Part shown: piece by piece, positions 2,212-12,729 of the stretch
Layout: each line of letters starts with the position of its first letter
Numbering within the stretch: the first letter of the stretch is position 1
Assembly (NCBI GenBank): GCA_011523505.1
Contig: WTGP01000008.1
Coordinates: 1-64,000 of the forward strand
Direction of reading: 5' to 3'
Origin: Gammaproteobacteria bacterium
Lineage (GTDB): Bacteria; Pseudomonadota; Gammaproteobacteria; Steroidobacterales; Foliamicaceae
Length of the DNA: 64,000 nucleotides
Position numbers and translations under genes: made by a program
Notes under the pieces: generated by a model
Database searches by the model: none
What the model saw: the letters and a program-made list of their open reading frames with translations, nothing else
Told to the model about the DNA's origin: nothing

Positions 2212-4605
2212 GTGATAAAGAAATTAACTATTTCATTTATCACTCTGATATCAATAGTAGTTCTGATATCTCTGGCGGCCTTACTGTGGTTGCGCACCAG
2301 CAACGTTCCGACTCGCGCGGGAACCGTCGACAAGCCGATTCCGCTGGGCGTGCTGGATGCGCCGGTTACGGTCAGGAGGGACCGCTACGGGGTCCCGTAC
2401 ATCCATGCGCAATCGCTGGCGGACGCAATCCGGGCGCAGGGATTCGTCACCGCGCAGGACCGGCTGACCCAGATGCTCCTGACCCGCGAAGCGGTCAATG
2501 GCCGTCTGGCCGAACGGATCGGACCTCGTGGAGAAAGCAACGACATCCGCGTGCGAGTGCTCGGAATCCGGCAACTGGCCCGCCGGTTTGCGGCCGGTCT
2601 CGAGTCGCCCAGCCGGGAAATGCACGAGTGGTATCTCGAAGGCGTCAATGCCTACATCGGCACGCGGGCGCATGAGTTTCCGCTCGCGGTGCGCATTTCC
2701 GGGACGCCGCCGGCGCCCTACACGCTGGAGGACATCTGCGCGCACTACCTGCTCCAGGCGTACGACCTTACCGAGAACTGGCGCTCCGAGTGGCTGGCCC
2801 AGCGTCTCGTGGACCGGCTGGGACGCGAGAAGGCCGCACAAATCTCGCTCGTCAGCGTAAACCCGGACGACGGCAGCCGGTGGGCGTCGGATTACGCGCT
2901 CGCGCCGCGGGAACCGCTGGTGTCGATGCATGAGCAACCGCAAGCCGAGGCCAGCCCCGTCGGCGGCTCCAACAGCTGGGCAACGGCCGGATGGCGGTCG
3001 CGGCGGGGTGCGCCGATACTGGCCAACGATCCGCACCTCGACGCCCGCCGGCTTCCCGGCATCTGGTACCCCGTCGGCCTGATTACGCCCGAATGGCGGG
3101 CCGTCGGAGTGGCCGCGGCCGGATGGCCCGGCCTGGCCGTGGGGCGATCCGATTCCATCGCCTGGGGCGTCACCAATTCGACCGCCGATACGGCGGACCT
3201 GTTCATCGAGCGGGACGATCCCGACAACGAGGGCCACTACCTGGAAGGCCAGCTGTCCTTGCCCTACGAGGTGGTCAGCGAGACCGTACGGGTACGGGAC
3301 CCGGATTCGCCCGGCGGCCTTCGCGAGCGCACGTTCGAGGTGCGGCGCAGCCGGCGAGGGCCGGTCGTTTCCGATACCCTGATCGAGGATGCTCACGGCC
3401 GCTCCCTGTCGCTTCGCTGGAGCGTGGCCGAGAACGTCGGCAGCCAGGTGGGCGTCGATCGATTGATGCTGGCGAAGGATGTCGCCGAAGCCGGCGAGGC
3501 CATCCGCGACATCGTGGGCGCGCTCAACTACAACGTGGCCGATACCCGGGGAAATATCGCCCACTTCACCTCCGGCCATGTTCCCGTCCGACTGAGGGGA
3601 GACGGCGCAATTCCGCTGCCGATAACGGGCGGAGAGGACAACTGGACCGGGTTCGTTCCCTTCGAACGGGCGCCCTCGACGATCAATCCGCAAAGAGGCT
3701 GGGTGGGCAATGCCAATCACCGGACAGTCGGCGCAAACTTCGACGGCATGTGGAGCAGCTACTCGGCCCCTTCCTGGCGCTACAGGCGCATGCTGGAACT
3801 GTTCGACAACGAACTGGTGTTCTCGGCCGAAGACCACTGGTCGGCGATCACCGATACCGGAAACACGCTGGCCCGCGACCTGGTCCCGCTGTTCCTGCCG
3901 GCCCTTGAGGCCGCCCCCGAAACGCAGCCGGCCGCGGACGTTCTCAGCGGCTGGGATTATCGCGACGACGCCGGGAAGGCCGCACCCGCGCTGTTCCAGT
4001 TGATGCTCCGCGCGCTCGTAACCCGTATCTTCGCCGACGAACTGGATACCCTGGTCTCGAGTTATGAGGGCTCTCCCTATTTTTGGCAGGAACGCGTTTA
4101 TTCGATGCTGGAATCCGGGGCATCGGACTGGTTCGACAACATCAATACCCCGCAAACCGAAAGCCGGGACGACCTGGTTCGGGGCGCGGCGCTGGATGCC
4201 TGGCGGCAACTTGAAGCGAGTCTGGGCGGGAACCCGCGCGACTGGCGCTGGGGCGATATCAGCCGGCTCAGGATTTCCAGCCCCCTCCCGACGGCCAACA
4301 GGTTCGTGAACCGTCTGTTCGGCGGCGGCGATTTTCCGCGCACCGGGTCCACGGAGACCTTGTGGGGGTCGTACGGCAGCCCGTCGTACGGCGCCTGGGC
4401 GATCGATTCGCTGCGCTTCGTGGCGGATCTCGGCGATCCGGACAAGGTGCTGGCAGTCATTCCCGGCGGCGTCAGCGGACGCCTGTTCGATCCGCACCTG
4501 AACGACCAGCTTCCGTTGTGGCTGTCCGGCGAAATCAACTACTGGTGGTTCTCCGACCAGGCCATCAGCGTCAATGCGCGCAGGGAAGTCACGCTGGCGC
4601 CGTGA
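2212..4605 (+). CDS. Penicillin acylase family Ntn hydrolase (first of tandem pair)
   Basis: An S45-type amidohydrolase: a precursor that cleaves itself before a serine, which then becomes the N-terminal nucleophile that hydrolyses amide bonds (penicillins, acyl-homoserine lactones or other N-acyl compounds in known members). A single hydrophobic anchor or signal (residues about 7-27) places it in the envelope. The processing site is GG/SNSW, nucleophile Ser253. Length about 797 residues matches the family. The start is uncertain: TTG 2206 or GTG 2212, both touching the pyrB stop. The first 65 bases are strikingly AT-rich (ATA and TTA codons) compared with the rest of the gene. It is closely similar throughout to the next gene. 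Substrate unknown. Confidence 0.9.
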   Translation: MIKKLTISFITLISIVVLISLAALLWLRTSNVPTRAGTVDKPIPLGVLDAPVTVRRDRYGVPYIHAQSLADAIRAQGFVTAQDRLTQMLLTREAVNGRLAERIGPRGESNDIRVRVLGIRQLARRFAAGLESPSREMHEWYLEGVNAYIGTRAHEFPLAVRISGTPPAPYTLEDICAHYLLQAYDLTENWRSEWLAQRLVDRLGREKAAQISLVSVNPDDGSRWASDYALAPREPLVSMHEQPQAEASPVGGSNSWATAGWRSRRGAPILANDPHLDARRLPGIWYPVGLITPEWRAVGVAAAGWPGLAVGRSDSIAWGVTNSTADTADLFIERDDPDNEGHYLEGQLSLPYEVVSETVRVRDPDSPGGLRERTFEVRRSRRGPVVSDTLIEDAHGRSLSLRWSVAENVGSQVGVDRLMLAKDVAEAGEAIRDIVGALNYNVADTRGNIAHFTSGHVPVRLRGDGAIPLPITGGEDNWTGFVPFERAPSTINPQRGWVGNANHRTVGANFDGMWSSYSAPSWRYRRMLELFDNELVFSAEDHWSAITDTGNTLARDLVPLFLPALEAAPETQPAADVLSGWDYRDDAGKAAPALFQLMLRALVTRIFADELDTLVSSYEGSPYFWQERVYSMLESGASDWFDNINTPQTESRDDLVRGAALDAWRQLEASLGGNPRDWRWGDISRLRISSPLPTANRFVNRLFGGGDFPRTGSTETLWGSYGSPSYGAWAIDSLRFVADLGDPDKVLAVIPGGVSGRLFDPHLNDQLPLWLSGEINYWWFSDQAISVNARREVTLAP

Positions 4606-4627: not shown

Positions 4628-7027
4628 ATGCTGAAGAAAATCGGAATCGCGCTCATCGCCCTGCTGCTGGTGATTGTGCTGGCCGCAGCCGCGGGCATCG
4701 CCTGGCTCAGGGATAGCAATATCCCGGAGCGTCACCGCGACGTCGGCGACGCAGCGGTCCTGGCGATGCTGGAAGACGAAGTGCGCGTGAAGCGGGACCG
4801 GCAGGGAGTCCCCTATATCTACGCGGAGACGCTGGCCGACGCCTTGCGCGTTCAGGGTTTCGTCACGTCCCAGGACCGCCTGTCGCAGATGCTGCTGACC
4901 CGCGAGCTGATCAACGGCCGGCTGTCCGAACAGATCGGGGAGGCCGGACTGCGCAGCGATACGCTGATCCGGGTCATGGGCCTCAACTGCATGGGGTCAG
5001 TCTGGGCGGCCCAACTCGAATCGCCCAGCCGCGAACTGCATGAATGGTTCCTTGAGGGTGTCAACGCCTACATCGCGACGCAGGCCGACGAATTTCCGCT
5101 GGCCGTGAGGCTTGCCGGCGAGGCGCCGGCGCCGTTTACGCTGGAGGACCTGACGACGCAGTACCTGTTCCTGGCGTTCAACAGCACGGGAAACTGGCGC
5201 ACCGAAGTACTCAGCCAGGCGCTGGTCGATCACCTCGGCGCGGCGAAGGCGGCGGAAATCTCGATGCTGACGGTCAACCCGGACGACGAGAGCGAATGGG
5301 CATCGGACTACAGCCTGGCGAAGAACAGCATGCCGACGGGGGGCCCCGCGAGCTTCCCCGAGCTGCCCGAGCCGGCGGATGGCTCCAACAGCTGGGCCAC
5401 ATCGGCCCGTCGGTCGGCGGGCGACGCGCCGATCGTGGCCAACGACCCGCACATCGACGTACGCCGCCTGCCCGGCATCTGGCATCCGGTGGGCCTGATC
5501 ACACCCGAATGGCGGGCGGTGGGCGCAGCCGGCGCGGGCCTGCCTGGACTGGGTGCGGGGCGCTCCAGCCACGTCGCCTGGGGCATAACCAATGCCTATT
5601 CCGACGTCGCCGACCTGTTCATCGAGCGGGATGATCCGGACCGGCCGGGACACTACCTGGAAGGGGAACAGTCCGTTCCGTACCGGATCGTGGAGGAAAT
5701 CATTCGCATACGCGACCGCAGCGCGCCGGACGGCTACCGCGAACATCCCTTGACGATTCGACATACGCGGCGCGGCCCGGTCATTTCCGATCACGGCCTG
5801 ACCGGAGGCGACGGCCGCGTGTATTCGCTGCGCTGGAGCATGGCCGAGAATATCGGCAGGCAGGTGGGCATCGAACGCGTGATGCTCGCACGCGATACGT
5901 TCGAGGCCGCCGAAGTCATTGCACAGATCAACGCGCCGTACAACTACACGGTAGGGGACACGAAGGGAAACATTGCGCACTACACGGCCGGCCAAGTGCC
6001 GGTGCGGCGCCGGGGCGACGGAGCGCTGCCCCTTCCCGTCGTGGACGCCGTGGACGACTGGCCGGCGTTCGTGCCCTTCGCCCGCGCGCCCACGTCCATC
6101 AACCCGCCGCGGGGATGGGTCGGCAACGCCAACCACCGCACCGTGAGCGGAGATTTTGACGGACACTGGACCAGCTACGTAGCCTCCTCCTGGCGCTACC
6201 GCCGCATGCAGGAACTGTTCGACGGCGACGGTGCGCTGTCGGATGCCGACCACTGGTCGGCGATCAACGACACGCTCAATCCCATGGCCAGGGGCCTCGT
6301 CCCGATCATGATCCAGGCCCTGGAAGGGCAACCCGAAACGCGGGACGCCGCCGCGATGCTGGCTGACTGGAACTTCCACGACGAGCCGGAGCTGGCGGCG
6401 CCGGCCCTTTTCCAGGCGATTATGGCCAGCCTTGTGCGGCGCATTTTCGAGGACGAGCTGGGCGAGGCGCTGACGCGGCAATACACACGCGACATCTACT
6501 ACTGGCAGGAGCGCGTGTACCGGATGCTGCTGGCGGGCGAGTGGGAGTGGTTCGACGACACGCGCACCGAGGTCGTGGAGGGCCGCGACGACCTGCTTCG
6601 CGCCGCGGCGCGCGACGCCTGGTCCGAATTGCAATCGCGACTGGGCCCCGATCCGTCCGCCTGGCGCTGGGGAGAATTGAGCCGGTTCCGGTTCAGCAAC
6701 CCCTGGGTGCCCGGCGAACTGGCGGATCGCCTTCTGGGCGGCGGGGACTATTCCGGCCGAGGGTCCGGAGAAACGCTGGGCCGCGCGCGGTTTCCGGGAT
6801 TGGGGAACTACGATCCCCGGGTCATTGATTCACTGCGTTTCGTGGCCGATCTCGGCGACCCCGACAAGGTCCTGGCGGTCATACCCGGCGGCGTCAGCTC
6901 ACGCCTGTTCGATCCGCACCTGAACGACCAGCTTCCCGCGTGGCTGTCGGGCGACATCGGCTACTGGTGGTTCTCCGACGCCGCCATCGCCGCCGACACG
7001 CGGCAGGAAATGACGTTCAAGCCATGA
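4628..7027 (+). CDS. Penicillin acylase family Ntn hydrolase (second of tandem pair)
   Basis: A 799-residue paralogue of the preceding acylase, 22 bases downstream in the same direction. It has an N-terminal hydrophobic anchor (about residues 5-27), a prepeptide, and the self-cleavage site DG/SNSW with Ser253, the same residue number as in its neighbour. Shared blocks include the DRQGVPYI/DRYGVPYI region, LFIERDDPD, GWVGNANHRTV, SLRFVADLGDPDKVLAVIPGG and RLFDPHLNDQLP. Divergence between the two copies suggests an old duplication and possibly different acyl preferences. It overlaps the next gene by ATGA, so translation is probably coupled. Function as an amide or lactam hydrolase is a family inference. 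Confidence 0.9.
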   Translation: MLKKIGIALIALLLVIVLAAAAGIAWLRDSNIPERHRDVGDAAVLAMLEDEVRVKRDRQGVPYIYAETLADALRVQGFVTSQDRLSQMLLTRELINGRLSEQIGEAGLRSDTLIRVMGLNCMGSVWAAQLESPSRELHEWFLEGVNAYIATQADEFPLAVRLAGEAPAPFTLEDLTTQYLFLAFNSTGNWRTEVLSQALVDHLGAAKAAEISMLTVNPDDESEWASDYSLAKNSMPTGGPASFPELPEPADGSNSWATSARRSAGDAPIVANDPHIDVRRLPGIWHPVGLITPEWRAVGAAGAGLPGLGAGRSSHVAWGITNAYSDVADLFIERDDPDRPGHYLEGEQSVPYRIVEEIIRIRDRSAPDGYREHPLTIRHTRRGPVISDHGLTGGDGRVYSLRWSMAENIGRQVGIERVMLARDTFEAAEVIAQINAPYNYTVGDTKGNIAHYTAGQVPVRRRGDGALPLPVVDAVDDWPAFVPFARAPTSINPPRGWVGNANHRTVSGDFDGHWTSYVASSWRYRRMQELFDGDGALSDADHWSAINDTLNPMARGLVPIMIQALEGQPETRDAAAMLADWNFHDEPELAAPALFQAIMASLVRRIFEDELGEALTRQYTRDIYYWQERVYRMLLAGEWEWFDDTRTEVVEGRDDLLRAAARDAWSELQSRLGPDPSAWRWGELSRFRFSNPWVPGELADRLLGGGDYSGRGSGETLGRARFPGLGNYDPRVIDSLRFVADLGDPDKVLAVIPGGVSSRLFDPHLNDQLPAWLSGDIGYWWFSDAAIAADTRQEMTFKP

Positions 7028-9666
7028 AGCGTTTCCTGCTACCCGCGGCGGTCCTCGCCTGGCTGTTGGCCCCGGCCCCGCTCGCGTACGCGCAGGATGC
7101 CGCCGGCGAACTGCCCTGCGACACCGGCCTGTACGAAATCAGCGCGGACCACGAAGGCGCGCGCGCCAATGCCTGCCGGGTCTTCAATCCGCGCGGCGTG
7201 ATCCTGACCATCGATCCGGAGGATCCGCCCCCGATCAACCCCAGCCCCTGGTTCGGGTTCCACGTTCGCCCCAGGAACGCGAACGAGCAGGGCACCGTCG
7301 TGGTCACGCTGCGCTACTCCACCAGCCGGCACCGCTACGCGCCCAGGACCAGCGTTGACGGGCGGGAGTGGACCCCGCTGCCGGAGCGCCAATGGCTGGT
7401 CCACGAAGACGGCCGCGCGACCATGGAACTCAAACCCGGCGCGGAGGGGCTGTTCGTTTCGGCCCAGGAAAACCTCGGGCGGGGCTTCTACGAAGAATGG
7501 CGCCGCAGCACCGCCGAGCGTTTCGAAGGACTGCAGTGGCGCAGCATCGGCGAATCCACGGGAGGACGCCCGATTTTCGCGGCCGAGACGGCTCCCGGCG
7601 CGGCCAACTACCTGCTCTTCATCGGCCGTCAGCACCCGCCCGAGGTCCCGGGCGCACTGATGTTCAAGGCTTTTGCCGAACGGCTGCTCGAGGACCGCTC
7701 AGGAGCCTGCGACGACCCGTCCTCGGCGAAGTGCGCGTTCTATTCCGGGCACAGCCTGGTTTTCATACCCAACCTCAATCCCGATGGGGTCGCCCTGGGC
7801 CACTGGCGGCACAACCTCGACGGCACCGACCTGAACCGCGACTGGGGGACTTTCGCGCAGCCCGAGACGCAGGCCGTCCGGAACCTGGTCGACTCGCTGG
7901 AAGAAAGCGGAAGAACGATCGCCGTCATGCTGGATTTCCACTCGACCTGGCGAAACGTGTTCTATGTCCCGACCCTTAAGGATGCGACCCGCCCGCCGGC
8001 GTTCGTCGCCCGCTGGCTGCGCCTGGCCCGTGCAAGCGGAGACGCCTACGCGTTCGAGCGGGCGCCGCGGTCCTCGGAAGACACGGCGATTGCCAAGAAC
8101 TACTTCTATCGCCGCTTCGGCGTGCCGGCAATCACGGTCGAGACGGGCGACGATACGCTCAGGGACGAGATCGCCGCCACCGGTCCCGTCCTGGCGGACG
8201 CGCTGGTTGCAGTGCTGGGGGGCGGGAACGGCCCCCAGGGGCGCCGACGCGGCGCGCTGTGCCCCGATTTCTTCTGCTACATGGCCGAGGCGAACAAGGC
8301 ATCGCTCGTGATGCTCCTGGAAGAGGGTCTGGTGGACCGCGGGCAGGCGGAGAAGATCGCCGGCGCGATGATGCAATTGCATGCCGAGCAGGAGGCCGAA
8401 GGCGCCAGGCGGACAGCGAACTACCTGCCCTACGAGGAGCGCCTGATCGAACTGGCCGATGAGGAAGTGGCCAATCTTCATCTTGGACGCTCGCGCCAGG
8501 ACCTCCACGGCGTGGTACGGCGAATGTTGATACGCGACCAATGGCTGGCGTTGGCCAACGGTGCGTTGCAAGCCCGCGCCGCTCTGCTGCGCCTGGCGGA
8601 ACAGGAGGCGACAACGCCGATTCCCGCCTACACGCATGGCGTTCAGGCGCAGCCCACCACGCTGGGTCATTACCTGCTGGCGTTTTCGGCCAGCCTGGAA
8701 CGCGACCTGCAGCGCTTCCGCGAGGGTTACGCCCGCATGAACCGGAGCCCTCTGGGCGCAGCCGCGCTGGGGACCTCGGGTTTTGCACTGGACCGCGAAA
8801 GGCTTGCGGAACTGCTGGGCTTCGACGCTCCGGTCGAGAACAGCTACGACGCCAATCTGGTTTCGTCCGGCGACCTGCGGCGGGAGCTCGCCGGCATCCT
8901 GTCCCTTTCGGCGGTTCCCATCGGCCAGCTCGCCGAGAACCTGCACACCCAGTACCACAATCCCAGGCCGTGGATCCTGCTGGACGAATCCTCTGTCGCC
9001 ATCAGCACGATCATGCCGCAGAAGCGCAACCCGCGGCCGCTGGACCGGGTGCGCAGCCAGGCCAGCCGGGTGCTGGGCGGCGCGCAGACGGAAGTGCTTC
9101 TCGCGCACAACACCAACACCGGAATGCACGACTACCGGGACATCGCACCGATCATGGAGCTGGCGGACAAGGCCAGGCTGATGTACCGCCGCTACGAGCG
9201 GCTCATCGGACTGTTGCGAATCGATCGTGAACGGGCACTGGAAGAACTTCAGCGCGGGTATTCGACCATGACCGAAGTGGCCGACATGCTGGTACGGGAA
9301 GCCGGCCTGCCGTTTCGCACGGCCCATGGCTACGCCTCGGCGCTGACCGACTACGGGCGCGCGCACGGACGCTCGCCGGATTCGCTGACCGACGAGGAAC
9401 TGCAAAGAATCTACCGGGAAACCATGGGCGGCCGGTTGCCGGTTCCGATGGAAACGCTGCGCCGGGCGATGGATCCGGTGGCGATGCTCGCCGATCGCAG
9501 GGGTTCGGGCGGACCCCAGGCCGCCGAGGTGCAGCGTATGCTTGGCCGTCACCGCGAGTCCCTGGCCGCCGACCGGCAATGGCTGGGCAAGGCCAACGAG
9601 GACCTGCTCGCGGCATTCATCGATCTGCACACGGCGTTCGCGGAAATTGCGCCCTCCGAACGGTAG
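7024..9666 (+). CDS. Exported M14 zinc carboxypeptidase fused to an argininosuccinate lyase-like domain
   Basis: A single 880-residue open frame joins two enzymes. Residues 1-24 form a signal peptide (hydrophobic core ending APLAYA-QD). Residues about 30-400 are an M14 metallopeptidase: zinc ligands H204xxE207 and H306, DLNRDW from 269, catalytic Glu373 in VETGDD. After a Gly/Arg linker (about 400-413), residues 414-880 resemble argininosuccinate lyase: HLGRSRQD (486-493), YTHGVQAQPTT (536-546, probable catalytic His538) and STIMPQKRNP (661-670, with the catalytic-loop serine at 661). ASL is normally cytosolic; here export to the periplasm is predicted. It overlaps the acylase stop by ATGA and is followed by a TonB receptor. 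Domain calls are firm; the substrate and the benefit of fusion are unknown. Confidence 0.85.
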   Translation: MKRFLLPAAVLAWLLAPAPLAYAQDAAGELPCDTGLYEISADHEGARANACRVFNPRGVILTIDPEDPPPINPSPWFGFHVRPRNANEQGTVVVTLRYSTSRHRYAPRTSVDGREWTPLPERQWLVHEDGRATMELKPGAEGLFVSAQENLGRGFYEEWRRSTAERFEGLQWRSIGESTGGRPIFAAETAPGAANYLLFIGRQHPPEVPGALMFKAFAERLLEDRSGACDDPSSAKCAFYSGHSLVFIPNLNPDGVALGHWRHNLDGTDLNRDWGTFAQPETQAVRNLVDSLEESGRTIAVMLDFHSTWRNVFYVPTLKDATRPPAFVARWLRLARASGDAYAFERAPRSSEDTAIAKNYFYRRFGVPAITVETGDDTLRDEIAATGPVLADALVAVLGGGNGPQGRRRGALCPDFFCYMAEANKASLVMLLEEGLVDRGQAEKIAGAMMQLHAEQEAEGARRTANYLPYEERLIELADEEVANLHLGRSRQDLHGVVRRMLIRDQWLALANGALQARAALLRLAEQEATTPIPAYTHGVQAQPTTLGHYLLAFSASLERDLQRFREGYARMNRSPLGAAALGTSGFALDRERLAELLGFDAPVENSYDANLVSSGDLRRELAGILSLSAVPIGQLAENLHTQYHNPRPWILLDESSVAISTIMPQKRNPRPLDRVRSQASRVLGGAQTEVLLAHNTNTGMHDYRDIAPIMELADKARLMYRRYERLIGLLRIDRERALEELQRGYSTMTEVADMLVREAGLPFRTAHGYASALTDYGRAHGRSPDSLTDEELQRIYRETMGGRLPVPMETLRRAMDPVAMLADRRGSGGPQAAEVQRMLGRHRESLAADRQWLGKANEDLLAAFIDLHTAFAEIAPSER

Positions 9667-9723: not shown

Positions 9724-12700
9724 ATGAATGAACGCACCAGGTTCGCGGTCTGCGCGGCTCTTTCCCTGTACTTCGCAAGCAGCGTCAGTGCAATCGCGCA
9801 GGACGCCCAGGATGGCGACAGCGACGAGCCCGAGATGGAGGAAATCGTCGTAACGGGCAGCCACATCAGGGGCGCCAACATTACCGGAGCGCTGCCGGTT
9901 TCGGTGATCGGCGCCGAGGAAATCGAAGCAACCGGCGTGGATTCGGGAGACGACCTGATGCAGTTCATACCCGAGCAGGGTCAGAACTTCTTCAACGAGG
10001 CCGAGAACATCAGCGGCGGCGTCAATTCCGCCCGTGGCGATATCGGCGCCTTCAATCTTCGCAGCCTGGGCACCGGCAACACGCTCGTGCTCTTCAATGG
10101 CCGCCGGGTCGTGAACGCCGCCAGCTTTCAAACCGAGGAAGTCGGCGGCAGCTTCGTCCCCGTCAATACGGCAAATACGCAGACAATTCCCATTTACGGC
10201 ATGGACCGGCTGGAAATCCTGAAGGACGGCGCATCCGCGTTGTATGGGGCCGATGCGGTCGCAGGAGTGGTCAATTACGTAGTCAGGGACGACATCGACC
10301 ATTTGCGGGTTTATTTGCGTTACGGCTCGTACGACAACGTGGGCAGGAAGACCCAACGCGTTGCACTGGAGTGGGGCGACTCCTTCAACGGAGAGCGGAC
10401 CCGCGTAGGCGTCCTGGCCAACTATTACGTTCGCGACCGCATCAGTGCGCATGAAGACGAGCGCTGGGCGGATGCGGACTTCCGCCGGCGCGTGCCGGCC
10501 GACTCGCCCTGGGCGGGAGATACACGATTTCGCAACACCAGCGCCAACTCCCTTTACGGGCAGTTCGACGTGCGCGCGAGCGCACGCAGTACCGGTCTGC
10601 GGAACGTGCTGACGGATTCCGCCGGCGAATTCCAGGTATATCCCCAGGGCCATGAGGACTGTGACTGGGATCTCGGCTATGGAAGCTGCGGGGCGATCGA
10701 TGGCGATCCGATCTACCGGCGCAACCTCAACGCCACCCGCGATCTCTCTTCGGACCTCAAGCGGGGCAATATTTATTTATTCCTCAACCATGAGTTCGAG
10801 AACGGCATGGAGAGCTTTTCGGAAGCGCTGTACTACATGTCGGACACGCACCTGTACCGGCACGCTTCGGCGTCGTTCAGCACGGTCAAACTGAGGGTCG
10901 CCGCGCAGAACTACTACAACCCATTCGGCCCGTGCGGATCTCCGAATCGCCTGCCGGACAGCATTCTGCCGAGCCAGGTGCCCTGCGAGGGCCTTGAGCT
11001 GGAAATCGACAACTACCGCTACCATGAATTCCCGAGGATCGTGGAAAACGACGGCAACGTCGTGCGCCTGCTTACGGGTCTCAGAGGCCAGGCCGGCCGT
11101 TGGGACTGGGAAGGCGCGGTCGTCTGGTCGCGCGCCCAGAAGGATGACCTGACCCGCAACCGGGTATCCAACCTGTTGATGGTGGAGGCCCTTTCGGACC
11201 CCACTCCCGCAGCCTACAACCCCTTCAGCGGCGGCGTGAACAGCAATATCGAGCGGGCCCTGGTGGATGTGTACCGCAACAACGAGACGACGCTTGCGAT
11301 GGCCGACTTCCAGGTCTCCACGCCCGAACTCTTCAATCTGCCCTGGGGGCCTGCGGGCGGAGTGGCCGGGATAGAGTTCCGGCGCGAAACCTTCGAGGAC
11401 GATCGCGATCCCCGGCTTGACGGAACCCACGTTTTCACCGATTTCCAGGGAGATACATTTCCGTACGTGTCGGACGTGGTCAACTCCAGCCCTACGCCCG
11501 ACAATGAAGGCAGCCGAAACGTCACGTCGTTTTTCACGGAACTGCAGTTGCCGCTGATGAACAATGTCGATGTCCAGCTGGCGGCGCGTTATGAGAACTT
11601 CTCGGACGTGGGCAGCACCGTGGTGCCCAAATTCGCCATCGGCTGGCAGATTGTGCCGGCGGTGCTGTTGCGCGGATCCTGGTCGGAAGCGTTCCGGGCC
11701 CCGAACCTGATCACGATCAACGAGGTCATCGTGGCGCGGCAGAACACCCGCAACGACTACGCCTGTGTCTATGCGGCCGAGAACGGCGGCGATCCGGAAC
11801 AGGACATCATCGATTGCCGGAACAGCACGCAGCGTATTGCGCAGGGCAGCAAGCTGCTGGAGCCCGAGCGCTCCAACAACTACTCCTTCGGCATCGCGGT
11901 GCAGCCGACGGACTCGCTAACACTCACGCTCGACTGGTGGTCCATACGCAAGGAAGACACGATCGGTCTGCTTGGCGAGGAAAACCACACGGTGCTGGAC
12001 CTGCTGGCGCGCCTGCAGCATGGCGGCGGCAACTGCGGCGGCCTCAATGCCAACCCGGCGGTCGTGCGCCAGGGGGCCGAAACACTCAACGACGACGAGG
12101 CGGCAATCTACCAGGCGGCGGGGATCTGTCCTGCCGGCCTGATCCGCTACATCGACGACAATTACGTCAACCTCGACACGCGGACGCTCAAGGGCTGGGA
12201 TGCAAGTCTGCGCTATTCGCTGGAAACAGGAATCGGCGACTTCAGCCTGACTTATCTGGCCTCGTTTCTGACCAAGTTCGAGCAGGTTCCAGGCGGCAGG
12301 GCTGCCGAGCTGGTCGCGGCAAAGGATGCGGGAACTATTCCGGCCAGCATTCCCGTGTCGGGATTCGCCGACCTGCTGCAAAAGGACGGCAACCAGAAGG
12401 TCCGCCAGACGTTGTTCCTGTCCTGGCGCCGTGCGCCATTCCGGGTAGGCCTGTCGGCCCGAAACCTCGGGGACTTCTACCAGAATTCACTGACGCTCGA
12501 CGACGGCAGCCTGTACTGGATCCCGTCGGTGACGACCTGGAACGGCACGTTCGACTACAACTTCGAAATGGTCGACCGCGACTGGCGGCTGCGCTTCGGA
12601 GTGAACAACATGTTCGACGAGCGGGCGCCTCTCGCCGACCGCTATTTCGGCTTCTTTGCCGACGCCCACCAGGGCATCGAGTACGGACGGAACTATTACT

Positions 12701-12729
12701 TGCAGTTGCGGATGACGCAGGGCGACTAG
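9724..12729 (+). CDS. TonB-dependent outer-membrane receptor
   Basis: A 1001-residue active-transport porin powered by TonB-ExbBD. Visible features: signal peptide (about 1-25), TonB box EEIVVTGSHI, plug domain with LFNGRRVVN, RLEILKDGASALYGADAVAGVVNY-type plug signature, and a long beta-barrel ending in an amphipathic strand. Cysteine pairs in probable loops (for example near CDWDLGYGSC) suggest disulfide-bonded extracellular loops. It lies 57 bases after the peptidase-lyase fusion in the same direction, with its own promoter and a strong Shine-Dalgarno. From context it may import the substrate or products of the upstream envelope enzymes; the ligand could also be a siderophore or peptide. 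Confidence 0.93.
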   Translation: MNERTRFAVCAALSLYFASSVSAIAQDAQDGDSDEPEMEEIVVTGSHIRGANITGALPVSVIGAEEIEATGVDSGDDLMQFIPEQGQNFFNEAENISGGVNSARGDIGAFNLRSLGTGNTLVLFNGRRVVNAASFQTEEVGGSFVPVNTANTQTIPIYGMDRLEILKDGASALYGADAVAGVVNYVVRDDIDHLRVYLRYGSYDNVGRKTQRVALEWGDSFNGERTRVGVLANYYVRDRISAHEDERWADADFRRRVPADSPWAGDTRFRNTSANSLYGQFDVRASARSTGLRNVLTDSAGEFQVYPQGHEDCDWDLGYGSCGAIDGDPIYRRNLNATRDLSSDLKRGNIYLFLNHEFENGMESFSEALYYMSDTHLYRHASASFSTVKLRVAAQNYYNPFGPCGSPNRLPDSILPSQVPCEGLELEIDNYRYHEFPRIVENDGNVVRLLTGLRGQAGRWDWEGAVVWSRAQKDDLTRNRVSNLLMVEALSDPTPAAYNPFSGGVNSNIERALVDVYRNNETTLAMADFQVSTPELFNLPWGPAGGVAGIEFRRETFEDDRDPRLDGTHVFTDFQGDTFPYVSDVVNSSPTPDNEGSRNVTSFFTELQLPLMNNVDVQLAARYENFSDVGSTVVPKFAIGWQIVPAVLLRGSWSEAFRAPNLITINEVIVARQNTRNDYACVYAAENGGDPEQDIIDCRNSTQRIAQGSKLLEPERSNNYSFGIAVQPTDSLTLTLDWWSIRKEDTIGLLGEENHTVLDLLARLQHGGGNCGGLNANPAVVRQGAETLNDDEAAIYQAAGICPAGLIRYIDDNYVNLDTRTLKGWDASLRYSLETGIGDFSLTYLASFLTKFEQVPGGRAAELVAAKDAGTIPASIPVSGFADLLQKDGNQKVRQTLFLSWRRAPFRVGLSARNLGDFYQNSLTLDDGSLYWIPSVTTWNGTFDYNFEMVDRDWRLRFGVNNMFDERAPLADRYFGFFADAHQGIEYGRNYYLQLRMTQGD

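Follow-up and report, generated by a model that had tools for sequence, protein, structure and literature searches.

Lyases of the argininosuccinate lyase (ASL)/fumarase type are treated as cytoplasmic enzymes, and in ASL an N-terminal segment carries the residues that bind arginine. Among described relatives the S-(2-succino) lyase 2SL, a class I lyase, splits a succino adduct to fumarate and prefers N-acetyl-2SC (PMC9706529); the periplasmic proteome of Achromobacter xylosoxidans includes three proteins annotated as ASL, recorded there as expressed and as putative Tat substrates (PMC11533796). The latter proteome was the only relevant record in the literature searched for the fusion or for exported C-N lyases. 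A sequence-only reading of the DNA studied here proposed an exported fusion of an M14 zinc carboxypeptidase with an ASL-like domain and knew of no described enzyme with this layout; we found none in the literature searched. The parts come from families already known; that literature gave no description of the exported clade of EDDS-lyase-like enzymes, of its linkage to M14 peptidases or of the fusion itself.

The window – the whole stretch of DNA analysed, 64,000 nucleotides of contig WTGP01000008.1 – carries on its forward strand an open frame of 880 codons (7024..9666) that joins both domains without interruption, as had been read. The 880-residue product, delimited by the open frame, Pfam and an AlphaFold2 model, begins with a predicted Sec signal peptide (residues 1-24; 7024..7095, +). 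Pfam, alignment and fold comparison place next a cytosolic-carboxypeptidase-like M14 domain, comprising a beta-sandwich and the peptidase fold (residues ~28-400; 7105..8223, +); model pLDDT and dN/dS define a linker (residues 401-411; 8224..8256, +); and sequence, fold and tree identify the remainder as an EDDS-lyase-like domain of the aspartase/fumarase superfamily (residues ~412-880; 8257..9663, +). Matches to Pfam comprise Peptidase_M14 at residues 158-344 (3.1e-10), Lyase_1 at 480-685 (5.4e-28) and ASL_C2 at 746-797 (1e-11). The model, made from a 45-sequence alignment from which four rows from annotated plasmid records were left out, has a mean pLDDT of 85, with two confident domains and a linker that falls below 50 at residues 403-409.

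A critical issue is whether the junction is genuine. Across the linker (8215-8260), where a stop or frameshift would have undone the original claim, all seven of the fusions that we found are in frame, and dN/dS is 0.14-0.23, similar values being obtained for the M14 domain (0.13-0.22) and the lyase (0.13-0.21): a hidden stop or frameshift is thus ruled out. That assembly has artificially joined two genes might be entertained given that most of the genomes are MAGs (several can be traced to named records of this kind), but the presence of the fusion in seven genomes, one of them a single 3.1-Mb contig, as diverged orthologues with purifying selection across the junction, renders the chance negligible. 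The M14-lyase fusion is a real, single, intact protein with both catalytic sets.

The zinc site of the M14 half was said to be intact and is: His204, Glu207, His306 and Glu373 are shared by every one of the 30 M14 sequences aligned, the first three being zinc ligands and Glu373 the catalytic residue. Conservation of Glu373 is taken from this 30-sequence alignment; in the alignment behind the model, the rows of separate M14s are out of register near this position. DLNRDW, with its Asn-Arg substrate motif, occurs in all but one of the 30. Comparison of the modelled residues 35-402 with the PDB (VIA-align) gave Z scores of 32.6 for 3l2n, 32.2 for both 4b6z and 4a37, and 31.4 for CCP5 (8v3p). Judged from the model, the M14 half is a CCP-like (M14D) enzyme, having the beta-sandwich, the peptidase fold and the zinc site.

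The lyase half retains the catalytic features attributed to it – His538, Ser661 and the MPQKRNP loop – and the comparison with EDDS lyase proved apt, this enzyme being the best match in the PDB both by sequence (1.9e-55) and by fold (Z 40.8 over 464 residues, with ASLs at about 32-36). EDDS lyase residues R112, T158, S280, K286 and N288 are kept as R491, T537, S661, K667 and N669; S281 is replaced by T662, and the substrate-contact residues N113, Q159 and D290 are changed to Q492, H538 and R671, H538 being the residue that ASL has at this place. The description of the domain as ASL-like therefore stands for the superfamily fold and the catalytic residues, but not for identity with ASL, against which both the argH score and the N-terminal segment speak. 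Matches to Pfam ASL_C2 and to the argH model might suggest that the fusion is simply an exported ASL. We think this very improbable: the argH equivalog model returns 239.2 bits against a cut-off of 279.5, and structural alignments with animal ASL/crystallin start only at ASL residue ~30-33, the missing N-terminal segment having in its place the linker of the fusion or the signal peptide of separate relatives. Moreover, the tree places the lyase outside argH with strong support, and the window genome has its own argH elsewhere, adjoining an N-acetylglutamate-kinase-like gene. Score, separate argH and tree together rule out a true ASL.

The fusion begins MKRFLLPAAVLAWLLAPAPLAYAQD, which by eye and by hydropathy resembles a Sec signal peptide, in accord with the first reading. 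The further notion that export is unusual for such a lyase has not survived. The exported lyases form one clade (support 100/100) apart from argH, EDDS lyase and cytosolic relatives, and its separate members – some from the same order, others from plasmids of alpha- and betaproteobacteria – have, in those examined by eye and by hydropathy, signal-peptide-like N-termini; export is therefore not peculiar to the fusion. The ASL-annotated proteins of the periplasmic proteome (PMC11533796) may point the same way. Three exported subgroups can be told apart, each with its own active-site signature. In the plasmid-borne alpha- and beta-proteobacterial lyases and their relatives (L047, L049-L051, L073, L074 and L076) Asn replaces the catalytic His (YTN), Ser stands for Arg112 and Gly occupies position 290, changes that make a different reaction or substrate likely. 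The plasmid neighbourhoods of these lyases contain an amidase and a branched-chain amino-acid ABC transporter and do not settle the substrate. Among cytosolic EDDS-lyase-like genes, those at L092, L093, L095 and L096 adjoin genes of ~870 and ~558 aa, the latter being a sodium:solute symporter in the one tested.

How widely the fusion recurs bears on its interpretation. Our search within the genus covered nine genomes, seven of which (G000, G002 and G004-G008) carry the full fusion, the other six proteins being 74-93% identical to that of the window. Isolate codes of several MAGs suggest that these bacteria are probably sponge symbionts. In the lyase tree the fusions have a single origin, with the lyase of G023 as sister (99/97). 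Outside the genus none was found in samples of the order, class and phylum, and no place in plasmid records covered 80% of the fusion query. Recurrence thus holds within the genus; because the fusion was found in it only, broad recurrence is unsupported, and it is the linkage of split genes that recurs instead. The two remaining genomes of the genus lack the full fusion: in G001 the sole match resembles argH, and G003 retains just the M14 half (L066, M14 end ~9144), which terminates in a stop at the linker and is immediately followed by the gene for the TonB receptor. Since the G003 M14 falls inside the fusion group in the M14 tree, the simplest reading is that this genome lost the lyase half. 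The receptor frame downstream of the G003 M14 is itself split in two. Between the window fusion and those of G005 and G007, dS is far lower in the M14 half (0.27-0.32) than in the lyase half (0.89-0.92), a hint of intragenic recombination.

The fusion is set among genes for hydrolysis and uptake, the order in the window being two acylases, fusion and TonB receptor. The acylases are Ntn hydrolases of the penicillin-acylase family: the first (2212..4605, +), whose proposed GTG start derives from comparison with relatives, has its nucleophile Ser in GSNSWA, and the second (4628..7027, +), assigned by Pfam and comparison with solved relatives, is 58% identical to the first and has a stop that overlaps the start of the fusion by 4 bp. 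For both, the nearest solved relative is D-succinylase (7eby in the case of the first), followed by, among others, penicillin G acylases and glutaryl-7-ACA acylase. G006 keeps the fusion but has no acylases of this kind. Downstream lies a TonB-dependent receptor (9724..12729, +), recognised by Pfam, whose orthologue is found beside the lyase in three bacterial families (f1, f7 and f16). Of 67 candidate places scored in the window genome, only this one matches at E<=1e-60. The nearest relative in the fusion genomes of the sodium-dicarboxylate symporter (DASS) discussed below lies elsewhere in the genome, at 44% identity.

Family f7 encodes the lyase and a related exported M14 separately, on one contig and with midpoints 6.2-11.7 kb apart (n=5 genomes). 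This M14 also occurs in six of the seven f7 genomes with a close lyase compared with 34 of 107 overall (hypergeometric p 0.004, genomes counted as independent). A DASS symporter is in the cluster in six of the seven close-lyase genomes (in G177 the lyase is on another contig). The lyase is present in 6 of 11 DASS-type clusters and in none of nine NhaC-type clusters (Fisher p 0.014, clusters counted as independent), as expected if the lyase makes a dicarboxylate; five clusters have DASS without the lyase. The symporter and the orthologous TonB receptor usually accompany the linked pair, and D-amino-acid enzymes often do; f7 clusters may further contain ECF sigma/FecR or LysR regulators, an Amidohydro_3 lipoprotein similar to PRK09061 and a D-amino-acid dehydrogenase, and the companion hydrolases examined have Sec or lipoprotein signals. 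The M14 clusters of NhaC type lack the lyase; several have a gene of ~680 aa, with PGA_cap in the one tested. In L062, L103, L105, L108, L116 and others the M14 stands with a D-aminoacylase-like lipoprotein, a D-amino-acid dehydrogenase, a TonB receptor, an NhaC-type carrier and, in several, the ~680-aa gene. Such lyase-free clusters are a possible system for the catabolism of gamma-glutamyl or D-amino-acid peptides. A different assemblage occurs in G023, where the sister lyase has beside it two exported GGTs, an M19 dipeptidase with a lipoprotein signal and the orthologous TonB receptor; the reading frame of this lyase (L061:18411-19834), situated at a contig end, is split in two, perhaps because the gene is a pseudogene or because of a sequencing error. 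Two expectations about these associations failed: the fused M14 is not nested among the M14s of the split lyase clusters, the tree putting it outside, and the TonB receptor is no lyase-specific marker, its tree not tracking lyase presence. It follows that the range of substrates handled by peptidase and receptor is broader than that of the lyase.

On balance, we favour by a little the view that the fusion is a periplasmic enzyme with two activities that serves scavenging and is encoded in an operon for uptake across the outer membrane. While the gene structure is established, we infer the substrate class, fumarate as product, the order of the two steps and the role of the acylases. A small modified peptide or amino-acid conjugate would enter via the TonB receptor; the adjacent Ntn acylases would take off an acyl or gamma-glutamyl-type cap, if present; and the M14 domain would hydrolyse off a C-terminal residue to expose a free carboxylate, or trim the peptide. 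The lyase domain could then abstract a proton adjoining a carboxylate and beta-eliminate the N- (or S-) linked leaving group, so that the dicarboxyethyl group departs as fumarate and an amino acid or thiol is set free, the released products being imported by inner-membrane carriers. Candidate substrates would include N-modified aspartates, succinated thiols (suggested by the GGTs and M19) and D-amino-acid conjugates. A periplasmic sequence of peptidase followed by C-N (or C-S) lyase had been called plausible, and the linked split genes strengthen that suggestion: together with the fusion, they argue that peptidase and lyase act on one periplasmic molecule. Conserved catalytic sets, purifying selection, the EDDS-lyase-like fold, the signal peptides of separate relatives, the export signals of companion hydrolases, the DASS association and the orthologous receptor also speak for a scavenging enzyme. 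Against it, G003 kept the peptidase without the lyase, DASS occurs in lyase-free clusters too and its nearest relative in the fusion genomes is away from the locus, the fused M14 lies outside the split-cluster M14s, the TonB tree does not track the lyase, and G006 has no acylases of this kind.

Other substrates would imply other roles. If the substrate were an S-(2-succino)thiol, for example S-(2-succino)glutathione, the locus would perform a periplasmic version of 2SC breakdown, in which gamma-Glu is removed by a GGT or a glutaryl-acylase-like Ntn hydrolase and Gly by M14 or M19, before the lyase releases fumarate and cysteine. The G023 assemblage fits the processing of a glutathione adduct, N-acetyl-2SC is the substrate of a known class I lyase (PMC9706529), and Arg671 would suit an anionic leaving group. 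Yet G023 is a single locus, which lies at the end of a contig and has a broken lyase frame, the preference of 2SL is for N-acetylated 2SC, and the scheme does not account for the D-amino-acid enzymes found in the split clusters; we regard this route as unlikely. It is more doubtful still that the substrate is a metallophore of the EDDS or aspergillomarasmine (aminopolycarboxylate) type, cleaved to free the metal or to feed the cell. EDDS lyase is the nearest solved lyase, several split clusters combine the TonB receptor with ECF sigma and FecR, and a DAO-family oxidase is present; but this oxidase is closest to D-amino-acid dehydrogenase, Asp290 and Asn113 of EDDS lyase have become Arg and Gln, carboxypeptidase and acylases have no obvious role, and the clusters examined showed no recognisable siderophore genes.

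A further alternative centres on the peptidase: the core pathway would degrade D-amino-acid or gamma-glutamyl peptides, such as poly-gamma-glutamate or peptidoglycan peptides, the lyase having changed its reaction or become a binding module. In many genomes the M14 occurs lyase-free with the PRK09061-like lipoprotein amidohydrolase, D-amino-acid dehydrogenase and PGA_cap; its fold matches CCP5, which has been crystallised with Glu analogues; and D-succinylase is the nearest solved relative of both acylases. Retention of the catalytic Ser, His, Lys and Asn in a lyase domain under purifying selection argues otherwise, and we consider this about as improbable as the metallophore.

Should the scavenging enzyme be upheld, a well-supported exported clade joined, by linkage or fusion, to a carboxypeptidase and an uptake receptor would mean that the periplasm is a site of C-N or C-S beta-elimination. 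It would also offer a testable function for exported proteins presently annotated as argininosuccinate lyase, and the fusion indicates which two activities belong together for assay. Fusion and split neighbours point to an undescribed extracytoplasmic way of dismantling small modified peptides. More tentatively, there may be an unrecognised family of periplasmic fumarate-forming lyases that, together with M14s, would constitute an extracytoplasmic route for succinated or aminodicarboxylate-modified peptides, of which the fusion would be the most compact form.

Comparison with known systems shows how the locus both resembles and departs from them. EDDS lyase of Chelativorans sp. BNC1 (6g3d-6g3i, 6rx8) shares the fold across 464-471 residues, C-terminal extension included, with Z 39-41; identity is about 30%, and the lyase here is exported, with a signal peptide or the M14 domain replacing the N-terminal segment. 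With argininosuccinate lyase and delta crystallin it has in common the superfamily fold and the catalytic His, Ser, Lys and Asn, but it lacks their N-terminal segment, is changed at the Asp290 equivalent, is exported and falls below the argH cut-off. The bacterial cytosolic-carboxypeptidase-like M14s (3l2n, 4a37, 4b6z) and human CCP5 likewise have the beta-sandwich, M14 fold and zinc site, whereas the M14 here is exported and fused to a lyase. The A. xylosoxidans proteins, comparable to the fusion lyase by annotation, are likewise listed as periplasmic, with no dedicated function proposed for them (PMC11533796). Compared by description, 2SL comes close to the proposed role in that it belongs to a scavenging locus and releases fumarate from a succino adduct; unlike the fusion lyase, it is a separate protein, not described as exported or fused (PMC9706529).
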